A stretch of DNA of 64,000 bases from Natrinema caseinilyticum (GTDB lineage Archaea > Halobacteriota > Halobacteria > Halobacteriales > Natrialbaceae), in contig NZ_CP100445.1 of NCBI RefSeq assembly GCF_024227435.1, positions 1 through 64,000 on the forward strand. The letters are read 5' to 3'. Position numbers and translations under genes: made by a program. How positions within the stretch are numbered: position 1 is the first letter of the stretch; each line of letters starts with the position of its first letter. Below are positions 4,077-55,086 of this stretch, piece by piece. The notes beneath the pieces were generated by a model, which was not told the origin of the DNA, searched no databases, and was given only the letters and a program-made list of their open reading frames with translations.

Positions 4077-4928
4077 TCAATCGTGTTCCTGTCCCCAGGG
4101 GATTCGGTCACCGAATTGTTCGGATAACTCCGCCAGTGACCAGCGATCGACGAATCGGTCCGAAAGAGAGACACAGAGGGCAGCGAGCAACAGGCCGGCG
4201 GTAACGTCTATGCCCCAGTGAATCCCGAGGTACATCGTGGAAATCGCGACGCTGGCCGCAAGAACGACCGCGACGGGGAACCACTTTGGAAACGCCGAGC
4301 GCGTCATCCAGGCGAACGTCGCGACGGTGGCCGACAGCGATGTGTGCAACGACGGAAACACGTTCGTGTTACTGTTCACCTCGCTGGTGAGGTACTGATA
4401 CTGTGGATTCGTATCGTACAGCATCCGCTCCATCAGTTCGGCGGGCATCAGGTTCCGAGGACCGTACGCGATGATGAAAATGTACAACACGAGCCCGATC
4501 GCGTAGTTGAGCGCGTAGGCGGTCAACAGTCGACGGAAGACCCGCGTATCGGAGAGCGTAAAGTACGCGATAACGGGGAATATCAACAGGAACGTGTAGC
4601 CGTAGACGTAGATCGTCGAGAAATACGCGTTCGTCTCGGCCGTCTGTATCGACTGAAAGATCAGAATGAACTCCCCCTCGACGTTGTAGAACGTCGATGT
4701 CAGGTGGATTCCGATCTCACGCGACAGTTTCGGCGCCGTCTGCCTGGCGACACGATTGATCAGCAATACGATGAGCAACACGACGATTACGGGACCGGCG
4801 GTCCTGAGTCTGCTTCGCCACTCGGCTCGAGTCTGTGCGAGCCGTTCGCGACCGACAAAGACGGCGATAGAGAGCGGCAGCAAGATTACGATAACGGTGA
4901 CGAGCTGTGTCAGCACCTCGGCTAGCAT
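4077..4928 (-). CDS. PAP2/Aur1-like membrane phosphatase or inositolphosphotransferase
   Basis: Integral membrane protein of the PAP2 superfamily. The 283 residues carry about six hydrophobic segments. The phosphatase motifs are visible as FPSLHTSLS (motif C2, around residue 190) and MYLGIHWGIDVTAG (motif C3 with the catalytic His and Asp, around 235). The long N-terminal half resembles the Aur1/inositol phosphorylceramide synthase-like branch more than small PAP2 enzymes. The substrate is likely a lipid or isoprenoid phosphate, by inference. Its start lies only 5 bases after the stop of the binding-protein gene at 4934-6715, so the two are probably one transcript. Confidence 0.85.
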   Translation of the reverse strand: MLAEVLTQLVTVIVILLPLSIAVFVGRERLAQTRAEWRSRLRTAGPVIVVLLIVLLINRVARQTAPKLSREIGIHLTSTFYNVEGEFILIFQSIQTAETNAYFSTIYVYGYTFLLIFPVIAYFTLSDTRVFRRLLTAYALNYAIGLVLYIFIIAYGPRNLMPAELMERMLYDTNPQYQYLTSEVNSNTNVFPSLHTSLSATVATFAWMTRSAFPKWFPVAVVLAASVAISTMYLGIHWGIDVTAGLLLAALCVSLSDRFVDRWSLAELSEQFGDRIPWGQEHD

Positions 4929-4933
4929 CGCTT

Positions 4934-6715
4934 CTAGTAGCCCCCAAGCAGTCGTCCGTTATCATCGTAACGGAAGCCTGCCCGCTCGAACGCCTTTTTG
5001 GCCGCTTTGACGTTGAGCGTTCCGTTCGAACCGACGAACGGCGTTACCGGGTCCTCGCCATCCCACTCGAGGTCGGACGGTACCCAGTCGCCGGAAACCG
5101 GCGTTGCTGTGGGTGTCGCGTTTCCGTAGAACACGTCCTCGACGATCGCGTTCTTGTCCAGCAACTGCGTGATGGCCCGGCGAAAGTGGGAGTTGCTAAA
5201 CGGCGAGTTTCGAACGTTGAACCCGATGTGGTAGAACATTCGGGACGGGGATTTGAGCTGTTCGATCGTCGAGGAGTCCGGAATCGCGCCCAGGGAGTAC
5301 GCACCGAGCATCGAGGCCGTCACGTCCGCACCGCCGTCATCGATGCGCCCGATCGACGAGGCGCTCCCCGGGTCGACGGTGAACCGCAGTTCCTCGAGCG
5401 TCGGTTCGGGCAACTCGACACCGGCTCGCAACGTGAAGTGATCGTCGTAGCGCCGCAGCCGAAGCGACTCGCCTTCGGTCCGAGTATCGAACTGGAACGG
5501 GCCGCTACCGACCGGTGGCACGTTGTTATCAGTGACGACACTCCACCGTCCCTGCGGAGCGGTAAACTCGCCGCTGACGGCGTGTTGATTGACCCGCTCG
5601 CGCCAGATGTGCGCCGGCAGGATCGGCACGGTAAGCGCTCGTTTAAACGGTTCCCGGCCGCCCGTCACGGTGAACGTTAGTTCGTAGTCGCTTTCGATCG
5701 TGATCTCGTCGATCACATCGACATGGCCCTGATACCGCGGCGCTGGTGATTTCAGGGGCGCTCGTCCCAGCGACGTATCTTCCAGGAATCGATAGGTGAA
5801 CGCGACGTCGTCGGCTGTCACCAGTTCACCGTCGTGGAACTGACAGCCCCGTCGGAGCGTCACCGTCGCCGTGTGCGTCGATTCGCTGGTGTCCGCCGAC
5901 TCCGCGGGTAGATCCCACGATTCGGCCAGCCACGGGGTCACGTCGCCTTCGTATTCGGTTCCCAGCGAGTCGTAGAGCAGATCGATCACCATCCCGCGTT
6001 TCCGAAACGTCGACGAGAGCGGATTGAGATTCACCGTCATCCGACTGTTCGTAACGAGCGCGTGAAGCCGGGTGATGTCGTCGGCCGGCTCGAGCCCGAG
6101 ATAGCCGTAGCGGGTCGCGAGGCGACCGTCCTCCCAGCCGTCGAACCGATCCGCTCTGGCGACGCGATACTCGTCGGGGAAACAGATCGGTTCGAACGGC
6201 TTCTCCTGAGAAAGCCCCCGTAACACCCATTTGACGTCTTCCGTACGATCCTCGCCGTCGGTTTGGCGCTGTTCTTCGAGACGGGTGTCGAAAGCCATGT
6301 TGGTGAACCCGAACGGGTTCTGCCAGCCTGCTTCGCTGGCATACGTAGAGTGGAGGGCCTCGTAGAGGAAATCCGGATCGTAGTCCGCCGGGTGGAGGCC
6401 GACGTACAGGTCGAAGTCGTGGTCGAGCAGCACCGCTTCGAGTAGTTCCGACCGCGACCGCATGTCAAGCGCGACGTCTATTCCGACCTTCTCGAGACGT
6501 TCCTCGAGACGGCGCGCTATCTGGACGTTCTGTCTGTCAGCATCTGCAGGAACCGTAGCTATGGAGAGCGATAGCTGATCGGTCGTGCTGTGGTTGACGA
6601 CGCTTCGAACGCGGTCGATACAACCGCTCGTCGTGATTGCGGCGCCTGCGGCGCCGGCTGCGAGGAACGAGCGTCTGCTGACGCTGTCCTCAGATGGAGT
6701 GGGGTTCCAATTCAT
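4934..6715 (-). CDS. Family-5 solute-binding lipoprotein, circularly permuted (paralogue)
   Basis: Paralogue of the gene at 2128-3906, 593 residues, alignable along its whole length. Twin arginines at 14-15 and a lipobox TTSGC with Cys32 predict Tat export and lipid anchoring. As in the paralogue, the segment normally C-terminal in DppA/OppA proteins comes first (LSLSIATVP, DPDFLYEALHSTY, ending RADRFDGWED at about 190). The normal N-terminal part follows (VNLNPLSSTF, PWLAESWDL, GCQFHDGELVTADDV), and the chain ends AGFRYDDNGRLLGGY. It is probably cotranscribed with the PAP2 gene. No transporter subunits are adjacent, so it may share permeases encoded elsewhere. Confidence 0.88.
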   Translation of the reverse strand: MNWNPTPSEDSVSRRSFLAAGAAGAAITTSGCIDRVRSVVNHSTTDQLSLSIATVPADADRQNVQIARRLEERLEKVGIDVALDMRSRSELLEAVLLDHDFDLYVGLHPADYDPDFLYEALHSTYASEAGWQNPFGFTNMAFDTRLEEQRQTDGEDRTEDVKWVLRGLSQEKPFEPICFPDEYRVARADRFDGWEDGRLATRYGYLGLEPADDITRLHALVTNSRMTVNLNPLSSTFRKRGMVIDLLYDSLGTEYEGDVTPWLAESWDLPAESADTSESTHTATVTLRRGCQFHDGELVTADDVAFTYRFLEDTSLGRAPLKSPAPRYQGHVDVIDEITIESDYELTFTVTGGREPFKRALTVPILPAHIWRERVNQHAVSGEFTAPQGRWSVVTDNNVPPVGSGPFQFDTRTEGESLRLRRYDDHFTLRAGVELPEPTLEELRFTVDPGSASSIGRIDDGGADVTASMLGAYSLGAIPDSSTIEQLKSPSRMFYHIGFNVRNSPFSNSHFRRAITQLLDKNAIVEDVFYGNATPTATPVSGDWVPSDLEWDGEDPVTPFVGSNGTLNVKAAKKAFERAGFRYDDNGRLLGGY

Positions 6716-15904: not shown

Positions 15905-16219
15905 ACTCGACGATACGGTCTGTTCCCTGATGAATCAGTAGGAAAGCACCGGTGAACTGATTGTGGACGGTACTGCCGACTATATTGAGCACTCGGTGAG
16001 GACTACTTCTGGAGAAACCCGATGCAAGATACGCGCCCTTTACTGACCGCAACCAGACCAGAGTATCCAATCTGTGGAGGAGTTTAACAGAGCTAAAAGC
16101 GGGCTTTTGAGACTAACTTCCAGGACGCTGAGTCACCCGGAGAGCCACTCATCTAAATCGTAGCGGCAACTCATTCTTTATGACCGGGTGCTCAACAACC
16201 GATAGCACCAGTCCCAGAC
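15905..16219. other. Intergenic region without recognised gene
   Basis: About 315 bases between two divergently transcribed membrane-protein genes, so it should hold both promoters. No hairpin, repeat or short gene stood out. Confidence 0.4.
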
Positions 16220-16825
16220 ATGCGAGGAGAAATCAGCGTCTTCCGACCGGTCGAAGCGTACGCAGAGACCGTCTCTTCCAGAGCTCATGGTGTCGTCGCA
16301 ATCATCTCGTTCTGTGTGTTCGTCGGAACGATCGTCTTTGGCTTCGTCCCGGTCACAAGGGAGATCGAGACCTCCGGTTATTCGACCGCAGATCTACAGG
16401 AGGCAACAACTCGGACTGAAGTAGACACCATCCTACAGGCCTTCGAACCGGTCATGGATTCGGTTGTACTCCTTTCTGTGTTGGATTACCTCTTCATCGT
16501 CGCTGGGTTCTTCCTCTTTTTCTCGCTTCACTCCATAGTGATGAAGCGACTGTCATTCGACGATCGCCTAGTTCTGGTTCCGAAGGTCGGAATGATGCTG
16601 ACCGTCTGTTCACGGCTTCTCGATTCGCTGGAAAATCTCTGGGTTATCCTGATTTACTCAAACCCCGATAGCTATTCCACCACTTTCATCAGTTTGATGA
16701 ACACCACGCAATCAGCGAAATGGCTGGTGGTCGGGGTCGAATATCCTACCCTCGGACTGGCGATTGTTCTAGTTCTTCTGGCCCAATTTACACCTCTTTT
16801 CGACGGTAAGACGTTCCGGATGTAA
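16220..16825 (+). CDS. Four-helix membrane protein of unknown function
   Basis: Unrecognised 201-residue protein. Hydrophobic segments lie at about 24-45 (VVAIISFCVFVGTIVFGFVP), 80-105 (VLLSVLDYLFIVAGFFLFFS), 118-140 and 165-185. An extracellular-like loop between the first two carries many Thr/Glu. No catalytic motif is visible. Base composition is clearly more AT-rich than the backbone, which fits acquisition with the island. Confidence 0.7.
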   Translation: MRGEISVFRPVEAYAETVSSRAHGVVAIISFCVFVGTIVFGFVPVTREIETSGYSTADLQEATTRTEVDTILQAFEPVMDSVVLLSVLDYLFIVAGFFLFFSLHSIVMKRLSFDDRLVLVPKVGMMLTVCSRLLDSLENLWVILIYSNPDSYSTTFISLMNTTQSAKWLVVGVEYPTLGLAIVLVLLAQFTPLFDGKTFRM

Positions 16826-16901
16826 TCTCAGGCTCGGTTCTGTTGAAAGCCTATGGTCAGACACTCTTTGCGGTGAAACAGCTGGTGAGTGGAGATACCA
16901 A

Positions 16902-17180
16902 TCAATTGAATAGAACGAAGAATACTATCCCACCGGCAACCACCCCGACGATGCCAAGAAAGATTGCGAACCGCCGTTCTCTAGATGTCGGGGAACGTGT
17001 CTCAAGAACCCGTTCGAGTCCAACTCCGATTGCCGCGCCTGTTGCGACAAAGGCGACCATCCCTATCGGAACCTGGGCCGACACCAGGAATGCGAGTATC
17101 CCAATGGCGAGACCAAACCACACACCTGTAACCAGCCCGTAACCAGATGGGAACTGCTCTCTGCTATGGACGTTTGGCAT
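16902..17180 (-). CDS. Small two- or three-helix membrane protein
   Basis: Unrecognised 92-residue protein with hydrophobic stretches FGLAIGILAFLVSAQVPIG, MVAFVATGAAIGVGLERVL and FAIFLGIVGVVAGGIVFFVL. The short hydrophilic N terminus PNVHSREQFPSG has no signal. Located in the AT-richer island next to IS6. Confidence 0.6.
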   Translation of the reverse strand: MPNVHSREQFPSGYGLVTGVWFGLAIGILAFLVSAQVPIGMVAFVATGAAIGVGLERVLETRSPTSRERRFAIFLGIVGVVAGGIVFFVLFN

Positions 17181-17344
17181 GAGCGTACTCGGTTCGTTAA
17201 ATTGTAGTGTTCATAAATATGTGGCTCTGTTGAAATACCCAGCATGTGATGAGACCTGACCCGGTTGTGTCAATACAGAAGACGAGTTTAGCAGAGCGTG
17301 GGACAGAGCGCGAGTAGACAGGGGACAAGTTTGATTACAGAAGT

Positions 17345-17360
17345 GGCACCGTCTAGTTAG
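17345..17360 (+). repeat. Left terminal inverted repeat of the IS6 element
   Basis: GGCACCGTCTAGTTAG, matching the right end with two differences. Confidence 0.85.
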
Positions 17361-17401
17361 CGCGGTTTGAGAAGCGAGCAGGTCGTAGAGTGAGTTTGGC
17401 T

Positions 17402-18079
17402 ATGATGCTCGCAGACCTGCTCAGCGAGTGCTACGCGGCGGAATTTGATGAAGCTTGGGAGCGTGAGCGGACGGCGACGCCCGTCAGGGTGTTCGCCGTC
17501 CGGCTCCACGCGACCGGTTGTTCACTTCGAGAGATACAAGCAATTCTTCGCTTGATTGGCGTAGAACGCTCTCATCAAGCAATCTGGCACTGGGTGCATC
17601 GGCTGGCTGACAGCGTGCCAGACCCGCCGACGGCGAAGCCGTCGCGGGTCGCCATTGATGAAACCGCTGTCAAGATCAACGGCAACTGGTCTTGGGTATA
17701 CGCTGCAATAGATTTAGACTCACGATTAATCCTTGATGTCGCAGTGTTTGGACGACGAGGCACCGATCCAGCCGCTGCATTCCTACATCGATTGACCGAG
17801 AAACACGATCTCTCCGAGACGGTGTTTCTCGTTGATGGCTACGGGTATCTGACTGCCCTCTCTCGATTAGGGTTAAGCGGTCAGCTCAACTACGTCGAGC
17901 GAAACCTCATCGAAAAGTGGTTTCAGACCTTCAAGATGCGAGCTGACCGCTTCCATAATTCATGGGTGGGCAGTCGGGCGAGCGTCAGAGAATGGCTTGA
18001 ACAGTTTGTACACTACTACAACACACAACGACCCCACCAATCACTCAATGGACAGACTCCAGCCGAGGTGCTAAACTAG
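17402..18079 (+). CDS. IS6-family transposase (DDE)
   Basis: About 225 residues, the normal length of short haloarchaeal IS6 transposases. It has an N-terminal helix-turn-helix (TGCSLREIQAILRLIGVERS) and a DDE core with Asp in VAIDETAVKINGNW, Asp in FLVDGYGYLTALSRL and Glu in NLIEKWFQTFK, then the family tail HYYNTQRPHQSLNGQTPAEV. An in-frame GTG at 17390 is the alternative start. All catalytic residues are present, so it could be active. Confidence 0.93.
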   Translation: MMLADLLSECYAAEFDEAWERERTATPVRVFAVRLHATGCSLREIQAILRLIGVERSHQAIWHWVHRLADSVPDPPTAKPSRVAIDETAVKINGNWSWVYAAIDLDSRLILDVAVFGRRGTDPAAAFLHRLTEKHDLSETVFLVDGYGYLTALSRLGLSGQLNYVERNLIEKWFQTFKMRADRFHNSWVGSRASVREWLEQFVHYYNTQRPHQSLNGQTPAEVLN

Positions 18080-48961: not shown

Positions 48962-50188
48962 ATGAGTACACCCGACGAGACCACGCCCGCGCCCGGCTTC
49001 GACGACGAGGCCGTCCTGCTGGTCGGCCACGGTTCCCGGCACGAGAAGTCGAACGAACAGGTTCGCGAACTGGCCGCCGACCTCGAGTCCCGGCTCGGGA
49101 TCCCGGTCGACGCCGCGTTCCTCGAACTCGCGGAGCCCGCGATCGACGAGGCCTTCGCGGAACTCGCACTCGTCGTGTCGAGAGTGACCGTCGTCCACTG
49201 CTCGTTGTTCGCCGCGAGCCACGTGAAAAACGACGTGCCGCTCTCGATCGAGCGGGCTCGCGCCGAACACGACCTCGAGATCGACAACGGGGGCCACCTG
49301 GGTGTTCATCCGGCGATTCTCGACCTCCTGGACGACCGCGCCGCCGCCGTCGAGTGTGACCTGGACGTCGATCGCAGCGCGGACGACGTCGCCGTCGTCC
49401 TCTGTGCGCGGGGCTCGAGCGATCCGGACGCCAACGGCGACGTTCACAAACTCGCCCGCCTGCTGTTCGAAGGCCGCGCGTTCGATCGCGTCGAGGCGAC
49501 GTTCATCGGTGTGACGGAACCGACCCTCGACGACACGCTCCACGGCCTTTCGAAACACAGGCCCGACGCCGTCGTCGTCCTGCCGTACATGCTCGGGGAC
49601 GGCGTCCTTACCCAACGCGTGCGCGACTGGACGGGCGGATTCCACGACGAGTATCCGTACGTCGACGCGCTCGCCGGCGACCCGCTCGGAACCGACTCCC
49701 GGTTACTCGACGTTTTCGCCGATCGCTGGCAGGAGGCCCGAAGCGGGAGCGTGGAAATGTCCTGTGACACGTGCAAGTACAAAGTCGACCTCGAGGGCTA
49801 CGAGGAGGACGTCGGCGGCGCGCGAGCGATGCTCCGGGCGCTGGCCCACCAGGAGGCCCACGCCGACCGCGAGGACGTCGACGACGAACCCCACAGCCAC
49901 GACGCGCCGGAAAAGCACGTCGCGGTTTGCATGAATCAGACCTGCGCCGAGCAGGGGTCGCCGGCGGTTCTCGAGCGACTGCGACAGGAAACCCGCGACT
50001 CAGCGCACTGCGATGCTCGCATCACGCGATCGTCCTGTCTGAGCCGGTGTGGCGACGGGCCGATGGTCGCGGTCTACCCCGACGGGGTCTGGTACGGCGA
50101 TGTCGCGAGCGAGGACGCCGAGCGGATCGTGGGCGACCATCTCGACCGGGACCGAATCGTCAGCGACCTCGTCGATCAGACGCTGTAG
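48962..50188 (+). CDS. cbiX: Sirohydrochlorin cobaltochelatase CbiX fused to a [2Fe-2S] domain
   Basis: 408 residues. Two CbiX-type halves: VLLVGHGSRHEKSNEQVREL and VHCSLFAASHVKNDVPLSIE in the first (His residues of the chelatase site), VAVVLCARGSSDPDANGDVH and VVLPYMLGDGVLTQRVRDW in the second. A His/Cys-containing linker (MSCDTCKYKVDLEG) precedes a C-terminal thioredoxin-like [2Fe-2S] ferredoxin domain with Cys in CMNQTC, SSCLSRCGDGPMVAVYPDGV. CbiX inserts Co2+ into sirohydrochlorin, the early step of the anaerobic route. Fe-S tails on CbiX are known but their role is not settled. Confidence 0.94.
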   Translation: MSTPDETTPAPGFDDEAVLLVGHGSRHEKSNEQVRELAADLESRLGIPVDAAFLELAEPAIDEAFAELALVVSRVTVVHCSLFAASHVKNDVPLSIERARAEHDLEIDNGGHLGVHPAILDLLDDRAAAVECDLDVDRSADDVAVVLCARGSSDPDANGDVHKLARLLFEGRAFDRVEATFIGVTEPTLDDTLHGLSKHRPDAVVVLPYMLGDGVLTQRVRDWTGGFHDEYPYVDALAGDPLGTDSRLLDVFADRWQEARSGSVEMSCDTCKYKVDLEGYEEDVGGARAMLRALAHQEAHADREDVDDEPHSHDAPEKHVAVCMNQTCAEQGSPAVLERLRQETRDSAHCDARITRSSCLSRCGDGPMVAVYPDGVWYGDVASEDAERIVGDHLDRDRIVSDLVDQTL

Positions 50189-50267
50189 CCGCGCGAATTA
50201 TCGTGGTGTCCACGTGGAATAGCACGCCAACCGACTGCAGATACGAACCCGATTCAACACACGACCC

Positions 50268-50639
50268 ATGAGCTGTCACGAAATCGAAGCACTGCGACTC
50301 GGACTGATGAGCGTCCTCGGCGTCGGGGACGATAGCGCCCGCGAACACGCGGAAAAAGAACTCGAGGGCCACCTCGAGGGCCCGATTCGGGGCCTCGCGG
50401 AGGCCGGTAGCCTCGCGGAGGTCCAGCGCCACCTCGACGCGGCGCTGGTCGATTTAGAGGAATCGATCGCAGCGATGGACAGCGACGACCCCGAGTACGG
50501 TTATACGCGAGGACGACTGCTTGCCGTTCGCGACGCCGAGCGAGCGGTAGCGCGGCTGAGCGTACAGGGAGAGAGCATCGTCGACGGACTCGGGGATGCC
50601 CACGACACCCTCCACGAGACCTTTCCGGTCGAGGAGTGA
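50268..50639 (+). CDS. DUF3209 family protein of the cobalamin operon
   Basis: 123 residues, all helical. The start MSCHEIEALRLGLMSVLGVG is characteristic of the DUF3209 family that accompanies cbi genes (from memory of the family). CHE at residues 3-5 could be a metal ligand. No biochemical role is known to me. The stop overlaps the region of the next gene's start by a few bases, so the two are coupled. Confidence 0.85.
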   Translation: MSCHEIEALRLGLMSVLGVGDDSAREHAEKELEGHLEGPIRGLAEAGSLAEVQRHLDAALVDLEESIAAMDSDDPEYGYTRGRLLAVRDAERAVARLSVQGESIVDGLGDAHDTLHETFPVEE

Positions 50640-50641
50640 CG

Positions 50642-51922
50642 ATGAGCGAAACGATGAGCGAAGCCGATTCCGAGACCGAGTTCCGGTCGGTCCCCCTCGG
50701 CGAGATCGAGCCCGCCCGGAGCCGACACATGTGGACCCGATCCGCAGTCGACGTCGCCGAGTCCGGCGACCTCGTCGTCACCGGCGAGTGGGACGGCACG
50801 GTCACCGCCCGCGACGCCGACTCGCTCGCGGCGCGCTGGACGGCCGACCATCCGGACCACGCGGTCGGGATCGCATCGATCGCGGGTGACGACGCCGAGA
50901 CGATCGTCGTCGCCGGCCGCGGTGAGACGGGAACAATCGCGGCCTACGACGCCGAGACGGGCGACCGGCGCTGGCGCTACGACACCGTCGACGATCTCGG
51001 CGAGGCGGTCAAGGACGCCGTCTTCTACCTTCCCTACGTCGTCGCGCTCGAGATCGGAACAGACGCCGACGGCAACGAGGTGTTCTATGCGGCCGCGCGC
51101 CGCTACGAGCGCGACGGCGAGATCCGCCGGTGGCACAGCGCGGTCTACGCGCTCGAGGCTGATGGAACGGTACGCTGGAGCTACGGGACCGACGCCTCAC
51201 CGATCGCGCTCGATCTCGACGCCGATGGCGAGCGCCTCGCGGTCGGCTACAACCGCTGTATGGGCGACCACGACACCGGCCTCGTCGTCCTCGAGACCGA
51301 GGCCGGCGGCGTCGAATGGACCTGGGACCCCGGAACGGTGGGTGACCGACGCGTCGGCGATGTCTCCGTCGACGGGAAATCGATCGCCGTCTCGAGCCAC
51401 GGGGACAAGCGCGGCTATCTGTTGGGTCCCGGCGGGGCCGAGCGATGGAGCGTCGACCTCGCGTGCGAAACCGAAATCGACGGTGAGACGCTGTACGCGT
51501 ATCCGAATCACGTCACCGCGAGTGACGACCGGGTGGCGTTCGTGACCGGGAACACCTACGCGAAAGCGAGCCGCGAGACCGAGAATCGACATCCGAACGA
51601 ACACCGAATCGTCGCGTTCGACGGACTCGGTGAGTTCGTCTGGGAGGACGAACTCCGCGGCTTCGTTCACGGTCTCGGCGTCGGCGGCGAGCGGATCGTC
51701 GCTCCCTGCGCCCAGAACTTCCGAGTGCGTGATCCCGAGACGCACGGCGTCCGCTGGTTCGACCTCGACCGGGGTGACGGCGGGACCGCGGACGTCGACG
51801 GAATCGCAACCGCGGCCGCCGTCGATTCCGGGACGGTCGCCGTCGTCGAAGAGCCGGTCGAGTACCACGATGACGGCGAGACGCGCGGCGAGTACGCGCT
51901 CCGTGTCGGATCGTTCGAGTAG
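50642..51922 (+). CDS. PQQ-like beta-propeller protein of the cobalamin operon
   Basis: About 427 residues in blades of the form VVTGEWDGTVTARDADSLAA, VVAGRGETGTIAAYDAETGD, AVYALEADGTVRWSYGTDAS, LVVLETEAGGVEWTWDPGTV, typical of PQQ/BamB-like propellers (W-D or W-R/K closing each blade). No signal peptide, unlike most of that family, so it should be cytoplasmic. Last gene of the operon; a scaffold or cofactor-handling role is possible. Start ATG 50642 or 50654. Confidence 0.85.
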   Translation: MSETMSEADSETEFRSVPLGEIEPARSRHMWTRSAVDVAESGDLVVTGEWDGTVTARDADSLAARWTADHPDHAVGIASIAGDDAETIVVAGRGETGTIAAYDAETGDRRWRYDTVDDLGEAVKDAVFYLPYVVALEIGTDADGNEVFYAAARRYERDGEIRRWHSAVYALEADGTVRWSYGTDASPIALDLDADGERLAVGYNRCMGDHDTGLVVLETEAGGVEWTWDPGTVGDRRVGDVSVDGKSIAVSSHGDKRGYLLGPGGAERWSVDLACETEIDGETLYAYPNHVTASDDRVAFVTGNTYAKASRETENRHPNEHRIVAFDGLGEFVWEDELRGFVHGLGVGGERIVAPCAQNFRVRDPETHGVRWFDLDRGDGGTADVDGIATAAAVDSGTVAVVEEPVEYHDDGETRGEYALRVGSFE

Positions 51923-52150
51923 CCCGTTCGCTCCGCTGTCCTCTCCGCAAGCCGCATCGATTTCATCGTGTCGGTCCGTCGCACACGCAAGGCGAATCCA
52001 CTCAACGCACACACCCCTCTGTCATCCCGTACGATGATCGAGGGTCCAGAAACAGACGGCCGCGAGGTGTCTTCGAAACCCGTTCAGAGCGGGTCCCTCT
52101 CGAGCCGTCACGGCGGGGGCGAACGCTCGGCTGGGCCGTACCGCCGTCCG

Positions 52151-52900
52151 ATGACCGACGGTGGACAGGCCGAAATGGAAGACGCGGACGGCGGTGACTC
52201 GAGCGACGAGGAAACGACGGAACGTGAAGAAACGGAAGCGAACGACGCGGAGGCCGTCGAAGCGGAGGCTGAAGGAGGGGAGGTAGAGGAAGAAGCGGAG
52301 GCTGAAGAGGAAGCCGGGGAAGAAGCGGAAACTGAAAGAAAGGGCGAGCAAGAGGAGGAGGAAGCGGAGTATCACGTCGAGGACGCCGACGACGTCTACC
52401 AGAGCGACGACGCGTCGGGGGTCCTCCACCTCGACCTCGACGGTTTGTTCCTGGATTTGCTCGGCCTCGAGGTCAATCTGAATCCGGTCACGCTCGACGT
52501 CTCGGCGCGTCCGGGGGAGGGAAACCTGCTCGGTAACCTTCTGTCGTCCGTCGCGGGGCTGATAGACGGAACCGAAGCCGTGGCGGACAAAGCGAAATCG
52601 CTGCTGAGCAAGCCCCAGGAGTGGCTCGGGGGGCTGTTCGGCGGCGGTGGAAAATCGGACGAGGAACGAGCGGCGGGTGAATCCGAAGAAGCGGACGAGT
52701 CACCCGGTCGGCTCAGGTCGGCGATCGGCTGGCTCAAAGAGAAGGTGGCCGCGCTCGTTCCGAGCTTCCCCACCGAGGAGATCGTGGCGGTGGTAGTCAG
52801 AGAGGTGCTCGAGCAGCTGGTCGAACGGCTCGAGCCGGACCGGGACGAGGAGGCCGACGAACGACCTGAACCGCAGTCACGAGCGGAGGCGACATCATGA
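52151..52900 (+). CDS. LLGLEV/LLGNLL-domain protein, first gene of a four-gene operon
   Basis: 249 residues. About 1-80 is an extreme Glu/Asp run (AEAEGGEVEEEAEAEEEAGE), about 89-142 is a conserved unit HLDLDGLFLDLLGLEVNLNP then LDVSARPGEGNLLGNLLSSV AGLIDG (as two parts), and about 205-235 is a hydrophobic helix region WLKEKVAALVPSFPTEEIVA, VVVREVLEQLVERLEPD. The LLG...NP..LD..A..G.GNLLGNLL unit recurs in secreted and unknown proteins of haloarchaea and actinobacteria, as I recall, without assigned function. No signal peptide. ATG 52034 is an alternative start, but that stretch is basic and unlike the protein. Overlaps the next gene by 4 bases. Confidence 0.75.
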   Translation: MTDGGQAEMEDADGGDSSDEETTEREETEANDAEAVEAEAEGGEVEEEAEAEEEAGEEAETERKGEQEEEEAEYHVEDADDVYQSDDASGVLHLDLDGLFLDLLGLEVNLNPVTLDVSARPGEGNLLGNLLSSVAGLIDGTEAVADKAKSLLSKPQEWLGGLFGGGGKSDEERAAGESEEADESPGRLRSAIGWLKEKVAALVPSFPTEEIVAVVVREVLEQLVERLEPDRDEEADERPEPQSRAEATS

Positions 52901-53322
52901 GCGACGAATCACTCACACAGCGGATCGATACCGAAACGATCGCCGACACCGTCGACGTGGACGATCTGGTCGAGGGAACCCAGTGGGAAGACGAGTTCGA
53001 CGGCGAGAAGCCCTTCGGCGAAGCCCTCGGTGGGCAGATCGGCGCGCTCGTCGGGCGAGCGGTCGGCGAATCGCTCGGCCGAACGATCGGAACGATGGTC
53101 GTCGACGAATTGCTGAGTTCCGGCGAAACGGAGGCCGAAGAGGGCGACGAGACATCCACGGAGGACGAAGAGACGAGCGCGGATACGACCGGGGACGAAG
53201 GCACCGACGAGACGACCGACGATGACGAACAAGCGTCCGATGCAGGCGACGAGGGTGATGCCGAGGAAACGCCGGACGAAACGGACGAATCGAACGACGA
53301 GACGGAGGCCGACGGGGAATAA
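52897..53322 (+). CDS. Glycine-zipper protein with acidic tail (second gene of operon)
   Basis: 141 residues. Glycines stand at 41, 45, 49, 53, 57, 61 and 65, one every fourth residue (GEALGGQIGALVGRAVGESL then GRTIGTMV), a perfect glycine zipper able to pack helices tightly or insert in membrane. Residues 76-141 are almost only Glu, Asp, Thr and Ser. The start ATG overlaps the previous stop. No signal peptide, no enzyme motif. Related in plan to the next gene. Confidence 0.78.
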   Translation: MSDESLTQRIDTETIADTVDVDDLVEGTQWEDEFDGEKPFGEALGGQIGALVGRAVGESLGRTIGTMVVDELLSSGETEAEEGDETSTEDEETSADTTGDEGTDETTDDDEQASDAGDEGDAEETPDETDESNDETEADGE

Positions 53323-53375
53323 GACCGTGAGACGAAGACAGCCTGACGGCTCAGAACGGAATCGAGGTGGTGCTC

Positions 53376-54143
53376 GTGAGTGACGGAACCGGACTCAAGG
53401 AGATGGTCGCCGACGAGGTCGGCAAACAGGTCGACGTCACCGATATGCTGGGCGACGGCGCCATCGAAAACAGCGTCTACGGGGACGATATCGGGGCGTC
53501 CATCGGCCGTCGATTCGGGGAACGAATCGGCCGTCAACTGGGGTCTTCGATCGGTCGCGAGGTACACGTGACGATCGTCGACGGCATCGAGGAGGGAAAT
53601 GACCTCGGTGAAATCACGACCGAACTCACGACGGGGGTCCGAGACGCGTTCCGTACGTCTCTCGAGGATCTCGAGGGCAGGGAATCCGTCGCCTCGGTGG
53701 CCAGATCCGTCCGTGACGGCGGTACCCTCGAGGATCTCGCCGATGGAATCGGCGCCGACGAAAGCGGTGCCGACGAAGAGTCGGAATCAGAGAGCGAATC
53801 ACGAGCGCGGTCGGAAGCCGAGGCGACTGGTGACGAAGACGAGGACGACGCGGACGCCGAAGCGTCGGGCGGGGAGTCGGACGAAGCGCAGGAACACGAC
53901 GACGGACGGGAGAACGGGGCCCTCGAGACCGCCGACCGATCGGTTGACGACTTGGCAGAACTCAGGAGGGACACCCTCGAGGATTTCCTCGGCGTGTTGT
54001 CCTACGACGATTTGCAGTCGGTCGCCAAGGACGTCGACGTGACGGCGAACCTCAGTCGGGAGGAGATGACCGACGAGATCATCGACACGGTCACGACGGG
54101 CGAGGAAGCCGCCGATTCGAAAGCGGATGCGAAAGCCGAGTAA
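53376..54143 (+). CDS. Glycine-zipper protein with C-terminal SAP-like domain (third gene of operon)
   Basis: 255 residues from GTG 53376, chosen because GAGGTG lies about 8 bases upstream. Glycines at 36, 40, 44, 48, 52, 56 and 60 (GDDIGASIGRRFGERIGRQL then GSSIG) again give a seven-step zipper. A middle helical part, an Asp/Glu/Ser linker, and a C-terminal helix pair RRDTLEDFLGVLSYDDLQSV, AKDVDVTANLSREEMTDEII resembling SAP/Rho-N helical-extension motifs follow. Partner of 52897-53322 by design. Function unknown. Confidence 0.78.
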   Translation: MSDGTGLKEMVADEVGKQVDVTDMLGDGAIENSVYGDDIGASIGRRFGERIGRQLGSSIGREVHVTIVDGIEEGNDLGEITTELTTGVRDAFRTSLEDLEGRESVASVARSVRDGGTLEDLADGIGADESGADEESESESESRARSEAEATGDEDEDDADAEASGGESDEAQEHDDGRENGALETADRSVDDLAELRRDTLEDFLGVLSYDDLQSVAKDVDVTANLSREEMTDEIIDTVTTGEEAADSKADAKAE

Positions 54144-54237
54144 ACGTCGGAGACCGATTCGGCGGTCGATCCGATCGACGGCAGCGCGGACGGACGACGG
54201 GGCGAAACGACCGACGGAGCAAGAATACTCGACAACG

Positions 54238-55086
54238 ATGGGTACGCACGACGAACTGACCGATCGGGTGCACGAAATATTGACACGAGCCGAGGCGTCC
54301 AGCGGGTCGCTCGTTCTGAGACCCAGTTCGGATGGCGAGACTGACGCTGCGACGGCCGATTTGCTCGCGGCCGCGAGGGAGGCGCGTGACCTCCTCGAAT
54401 CGACGGATCCGAGGAGGGTGCTCGAGGCACTCGGGCTGGCGACGCTCCCCGATGGCTCCGAAGCGGATTCGATTCCGGAAGCCATCGCTCGTGGAGAGTC
54501 GGCCCAACTCGAGTCGCTGGAGCGACTGCTCAATCTCGCGAAGCTCGCATCCCGGAGTGACGACGGTGAACTCGGAGGTGCCGTGGAGGGGCTTCGAGAG
54601 ACGATCGGCGAAGCGGACGAATCAACAGACGCGGCCGAAGCGAGCGACGGCGTCGGGGACGAATCCGAGCGCGTGTCGTCGGCCGACGGACCCGGCGCGA
54701 CCGCGGCCGAACGGGACGAGACGGACGAGTCTGCCGAAGAATCCGCGGAACGCCTGCGGTCGGCGGTGCAATCGTCGGTTTCGGACGTCGGGACGCAGCT
54801 CCAGCAGCTTCGGGACCAACTCGAGGCGGCGAAAGGCGAGGCGGGGGATGCAGAAGACGATACTTCGGGGGAGGATGCTTCGAACGAGGCCGAAACGGAG
54901 GAGACGGATCCGGACGAGGAAATCGACGGAGAGTCCTCGACGCTCGAATTCGGAACTGCTGGGGGCCGCGACAGCGCTTCGAACAGCGGTGGTCGCCACT
55001 CGACGATGGCACCGCCGCCGTCGAAACGGGCGGATATGCGCGGTCCCCCTCATTTTTCGACGATGCCCGATAAACGGGGAGACTGA
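54238..55086 (+). CDS. Helical acidic protein with repeated STM tail (fourth gene of operon)
   Basis: 282 residues, helical and acidic (TDRVHEILTRAEASSGSLVL, LLAAAREARDLLESTDPRRV, LSSSVSDVGTQ-like coiled coil VGTQLQQLRDQLEAAKGE). The last about 35 residues are distinct: RHSTMAPPPSKRADMRGPPH then FSTMPDKRGD, with two STM units around a basic Pro-rich linker. Such a tail looks like a conserved recognition peptide. ATG 54238 is chosen because the upstream in-frame stretch is strongly basic. Same strand, 94 bases after the third gene. Confidence 0.75.
   Translation: MGTHDELTDRVHEILTRAEASSGSLVLRPSSDGETDAATADLLAAAREARDLLESTDPRRVLEALGLATLPDGSEADSIPEAIARGESAQLESLERLLNLAKLASRSDDGELGGAVEGLRETIGEADESTDAAEASDGVGDESERVSSADGPGATAAERDETDESAEESAERLRSAVQSSVSDVGTQLQQLRDQLEAAKGEAGDAEDDTSGEDASNEAETEETDPDEEIDGESSTLEFGTAGGRDSASNSGGRHSTMAPPPSKRADMRGPPHFSTMPDKRGD

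Follow-up and report, generated by a model that had tools for sequence, protein, structure and literature searches.

A four-gene operon in the 64,000-nucleotide stretch of Natrinema caseinilyticum DNA analyzed here (the window) is probably a previously undescribed accessory part of gas-vesicle (gvp) systems and not a free-standing system. Our preferred reading, to which we give a probability of about 0.6, is that its products P1-P4 form an assembly or shell module of gas-vesicle systems lacking GvpC, docking via P4 as GvpI does. Gas vesicles belong to the small number of gas compartments built of protein alone, and they serve as ultrasound reporters; descriptions of the haloarchaeal systems give a fixed repertoire of at most 14 gvp genes. 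The operon adds a GvpI paralogue and three families that no Pfam or NCBIfam model covers, and these are tied to gvp in about 80% of the sampled gvp-bearing haloarchaea. We found no description of it in the open-licence literature.

Operon layout and protein features

The operon spans 52034-55086 and consists of four closely spaced open reading frames on one strand (+), with P1 and P2 sharing 4 nt. Its features are listed below.

51981..52012, + strand: conserved element of high GC content, TCGCAYACGCAAGGCMAAY..CCACAACG, 22-53 nt ahead of the start of P1
52034..52900, + strand: P1, 288 aa from the very likely start (249 aa from 52151), with an acidic N-terminus, a beta-meander + helix module and a C-terminal helix
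52421..52561, + strand: P1 core, VLHLDLDGLFLDLLGLEVNLNPVTLDVSARPGEGNLLGNLLSSVAGL, predicted as four short amphipathic strands and then a helix (alignments A1 and A7, AlphaFold)
52897..53322, + strand: P2, 141 aa, glycine-zipper helix and acidic tail
53017..53091, + strand: P2 seven-glycine zipper, residues 41-65
53376..54143, + strand: P3, about 255 aa, glycine-zipper helical hairpin, acidic linker and C-terminal Rho_N/SAP-like domain
53481..53555, + strand: P3 seven-glycine zipper, seven Gly four apart, residues 36-60 from the GTG at 53376
53943..54122, + strand: P3 C-terminal three-helix domain, pLDDT about 95
54238..55086, + strand: P4, 282 aa, a second GvpI (GvpI paralogue)
54991..55083, + strand: P4 tail RHSTM...R.DM..FSTMP, corresponding to the GvpI tail motif by alignment with GvpI of Halobacterium NRC-1 and other gvp clusters

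Most of what a preliminary description had read from the letters holds: the glycine spacing of the zippers in two adjacent genes (P2 and P3), the LLGLEV...GNLLGNLL unit of P1, the two STM units at the end of P4 (HSTM...FSTMP), and a conserved four-gene unit with neither signal peptide nor enzyme motif. Acidity, noted there for the tails of the zipper proteins, extends to all four proteins, which are very acidic with pI values of 4.05-4.14. No Pfam or NCBIfam family matched P1-P4 above cut-off, searches of Pfam, NCBIfam and the PDB with P1-P3 returned nothing but weak zipper and Rho_N matches, and fold searches against the PDB gave no significant match. P0001 and its core had no match in the plasmid collection. 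Directly upstream of the operon, at 48962-51922 of the window, lie genes for a CbiX-type protein with an extra ferredoxin-like domain, a DUF3209 protein and a PQQ-like propeller. Elsewhere, 16001-18079 is a patch of low GC content (0.53 vs about 0.62-0.67) with an apparent IS-type transposase open reading frame at 17390-18079.

P1 had been placed at 52151. Its true start is very likely the ATG at 52034, because relatives keep the reading frame, the N-terminal motif and the block of upstream DNA there; the '(M/L/V)TDGG' motif near the P1 N-terminus, encoded upstream of 52151, is conserved in them. The GC-rich element (about 30 nt) occurs at the equivalent position in about 30 Natrialbaceae loci across genera and is a probable promoter or regulatory element, with no obvious TATA box. 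Its pattern, with up to three mismatches allowed, has a single match and no other copy in the window's own genome; a motif shared with gvp promoters is therefore not shown.

The P1 core model is of the EEEE-H type, a long helix following the strands (AlphaFold, mean pLDDT 63.8), and one face of the Leu/Asp module is all leucine while the other is acidic. The strand pattern resembles that of GvpA, and we considered P1 as a hidden GvpA homologue; this was rejected, as hhalign against the PF00741-type (GvpA/J/M) profile gave a probability of 0.3%. Exported proteins with a signal sequence from Actinobacteria, Chloroflexi, Rubrobacter and some haloarchaea contain the same core, and surface activity may thus be what it generally confers. 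Such exported loci include L089:5265-6080, L078:5763-6401 and L151-L182, with the widespread motif LDLLGL...GNLLGNLLCAVAGLLD. No gvp genes were found near the exported proteins at the bacterial loci examined.

By homology, P2 and P3 are paralogues. The P2 glycines stand at positions 41, 45, 49, 53, 57, 61 and 65. Seven glycines in register arose in only 4 (P2) and 6 (P3) of 200,000 composition-preserving shuffles, and a run of 6-8 is kept in all homologues found (57/57 for P2, 48/48 for P3), from which we conclude that the zippers are selected. In the P3 model, the zipper helix (38-75) is followed by a second helix to residue 100, at pLDDT of about 81-94, and the C-terminal domain has weak Rho_N/SAP matches in family members. 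Full-length P3 is confined to haloarchaea in the phylum-wide sample. A single gvp-negative genome (G034) has a P3 match, which covers the C-terminal region only, and this domain therefore has a life outside gas vesicles; the protein concerned lies near 4811-5161 of locus L024. A different zipper protein of 301 aa with another C-terminal end adjoins gvpM at L069:1240-2145, which suggests that the glycine-zipper proteins linked to gvp form a wider family.

Association with gas-vesicle genes

We sampled 292 haloarchaeal genomes, 120 of which are gvp-positive (PF00741 found) and 172 gvp-negative. P1 was found in 95 of the 120 gvp-positive and in none of the gvp-negative genomes. The raw P1 matches came from 96 genomes, all gvp-positive, and one (G268, locus L078) was removed as a TAT-type exported relative. 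In at least 15 other genomes, from seven families, P1 and P2, in some cases with P3 and P4, are part of a gvp cluster or border on one. The order is ...J-K-L-M-P1-P2-P3-P4 at L021 and F-G-H-P1-P2-I-J-K-L-M at L022, L060 and L080; operon genes adjoin A-O at L023, L063 and L071, and P1-P2-P3-P4 stands beside a complete gvp cluster at L067, L081, L091 and L092. In Natrialbaceae the operon is mostly far from gvp, which is probably why it was overlooked earlier. In the window genome about 600 kb separate it from the main gvp cluster, L048 (M-L-K-J-I-H-G-F / A-(N)-O). Together, these distributions argue strongly for a link between P1-P4 and gvp systems.

The neighborhood search found the four genes together in 23 of the 25 sampled Natrinema genomes as well as in other genera. 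In those 23 the operon occupies the same chromosomal place, after a PQQ-type propeller gene, the left neighbor being kept across Natrinema, and the same 23 genomes carry gvp. Of the other two, G006 lacks both gvp and the operon, and different genes follow the flanking gene there; G014 lacks gvp and retains of the operon just a broken P3, a fragment in two frames. P2-P4 are kept and P1 is absent in G005. Relatives that carry P1, P4, the two zipper proteins and the Rho_N-like domain come from Natrinema, Haloterrigena, Natronorubrum, Natrialba, Natronococcus, Halopiger, Halobiforma, Haladaptatus and Haloarcula amylovorans, among others.

GvpC is the wall-strengthening protein of gas vesicles. Its profile (A3) matches 13 of the 292 genomes, only one of which (G020, a Natrinema) also has P1. 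Among gvp-positive genomes this near-exclusion has an unadjusted p of about 6e-9, a value inflated by phylogenetic relatedness. Absolute exclusivity is ruled out by G020, which carries two complete gvp clusters, L057 with GvpC and L056 without, so that P1 and GvpC are on separate clusters even there. P1-P3 are absent from all seven GvpC clusters inspected. Twelve gvp-positive genomes match neither GvpC nor P1, and the module is therefore not required everywhere. Neither the NRC-1 GvpC query nor profile A3 gave a match in the window's own genome, and homology of P1-P3 to GvpC was thus not found.

We also considered P1-P3 as a replacement for GvpN and rejected this, since 60 of the 96 P1 genomes also have GvpN; GvpN presence does not separate the P1 and GvpC groups. 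In the window strain itself, gvpN (L048:11976-12452; C1 about 655.98-656.45 kb) encodes 158 aa after an in-frame internal loss, with residues of about 66-245 of an intact relative (the ATPase core) missing. Most Natrinema keep GvpN.

P4 as a GvpI paralogue

The STM units of P4 had been taken for the docking peptide of an independent system. Instead, they belong to a GvpI tail: GvpI is reached by an iterated P4 profile, the P4 tail RHSTM...DM..FSTMP aligns with HSTMP...SHSTVP of Halobacterium GvpI, and homology includes the ST(M/V)P tail. In the tree, operon P4 (21 rows) and cluster GvpI (23 rows) form separate clades with support of 100/100, and the two coexist within genomes of three families. 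Phylogenetically, P4 is thus an old GvpI duplication, a paralogue and not an ortholog of the cluster-encoded GvpI. GvpI binds GvpH, GvpF and GvpL and favors oligomer formation by GvpJ/K/M; when it is lost, the vesicles become very long (PMC7688916).

Proposed role of the module

We favor an accessory module of gas-vesicle systems because of the conserved unit, its co-occurrence and co-location with gvp, the joint loss, and the P4-GvpI and P2-P3 homologies. By analogy with GvpI, the ST(M/V)P tail of P4 would dock to the GvpH/GvpF/GvpL assembly complex and bring the module there. The glycine-zipper helices of P2 and P3 could pack into helical oligomers kept soluble by the acidic tails. P1, with its leucine and acidic faces, may sit against a protein surface that is hydrophobic, for example the GvpA wall as it grows. 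Jointly, P1-P4 would shape or reinforce the wall or help to assemble it, a task that Halobacterium-type clusters give partly to GvpC. The self-assembling intracellular structure proposed in the preliminary description is plausible on these grounds, but not as a free-standing new system, as the set tracks gvp clusters and is often inside them. No evidence points to the pore also suggested there, and the pore and the independent scaffold were abandoned once the gvp association emerged.

Several haloarchaea with GvpC-less clusters are reported to make no visible vesicles (Pfeifer 2015; PMC4390858). Natrinema pellirubrum, Natrialba magadii, Halopiger, Haladaptatus and Natronobacterium are reported as Vac- with such clusters (PMC4390858). 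These reports lend weight to a different possibility, namely that the GvpC-less gvp genes of Natrialbaceae and other haloarchaea build, together with P1-P4, a distinct GvpA-based intracellular structure and not a buoyant gas vesicle. This would explain the Vac- look of the carriers, relatives from Natrinema, Natrialba, Halopiger and Haladaptatus do carry the operon, and both cluster and operon are nonetheless kept in most of Natrialbaceae. However, the essential gvp genes are kept in the clusters and the Vac- state may reflect laboratory conditions, and we regard such a diversion as unlikely. The operon makes the Vac- puzzle of GvpC-less haloarchaea directly testable.

A regulatory module, in which P3 through its Rho_N/SAP-like domain would control gvp expression with its partners and replace GvpD/GvpE, appears quite improbable. 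GvpC-less clusters do lack GvpD and GvpE (PMC4390858; also in the clusters inspected), and the P3 C-terminal helical domain folds confidently with its weak Rho_N/SAP similarity. However, the GvpC clusters L057, L093, L094 and L101 also lack D/E, yet are without P1-P3. Moreover, the strong acidity of all four proteins speaks against it, no domain of the winged-helix or another DNA-binding type was recognized in them, and P4 is a paralogue of an assembly factor. An independent structure connected to gvp only via shared ancestry or habitat would suit the mostly distant operons of Natrialbaceae but is highly improbable, given the absence of P1 from gvp-negative genomes, the in-cluster placement in seven families, the joint decay in Natrinema and the P4-GvpI homology.

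Comparison with known systems

The Gly-zipper Pfam families PF13488 and PF05433 have GxxxG repeats in common with P2 and P3 (PF13488 vs P2, E 0.0054), but the likeness is confined to the motif: there is no outer membrane here and no signal peptide, and Gly-zipper_Omp scored 17.1 bits against P2, below the curated cut-off of 25. The exported actinobacterial and Chloroflexi proteins and the TAT-type haloarchaeal proteins (...LDLLGLxVxL...PGPGNLLGNLLCAVAGLLD) have the P1 core module but, unlike P1, an N-terminal signal sequence and cysteines. GvpC is an accessory gas-vesicle protein, as P1 is proposed to be, and the two almost never occur in the same genome. However, GvpC is a repeat protein whereas P1-P3 consist of zipper and beta modules, with no common sequence recognized.

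P4 resembles GvpI of the Halobacterium salinarum pNRC100 gvp cluster in its C-terminal motif, in the iterated profile match and in the kind of neighborhood, whereas it has an acidic N-terminal part of about 190 residues and lacks the YGxRL end. It differs from the cluster-encoded long GvpI in its separate clade and in lying outside the gvp cluster of the window genome. For the GvpC-less cluster of Natrialba magadii and Natrinema pellirubrum, PMC3403918 and PMC4390858 report the main cluster alone and leave a companion operon unmentioned; a long GvpI was already noted in the main cluster of Natrialba magadii, and the P4 operon is unmentioned there (PMC3403918). The GvpC-less gvp cluster of Natrialba magadii and Natrinema pellirubrum is of the same type as L048 of the window genome, including the long GvpI.
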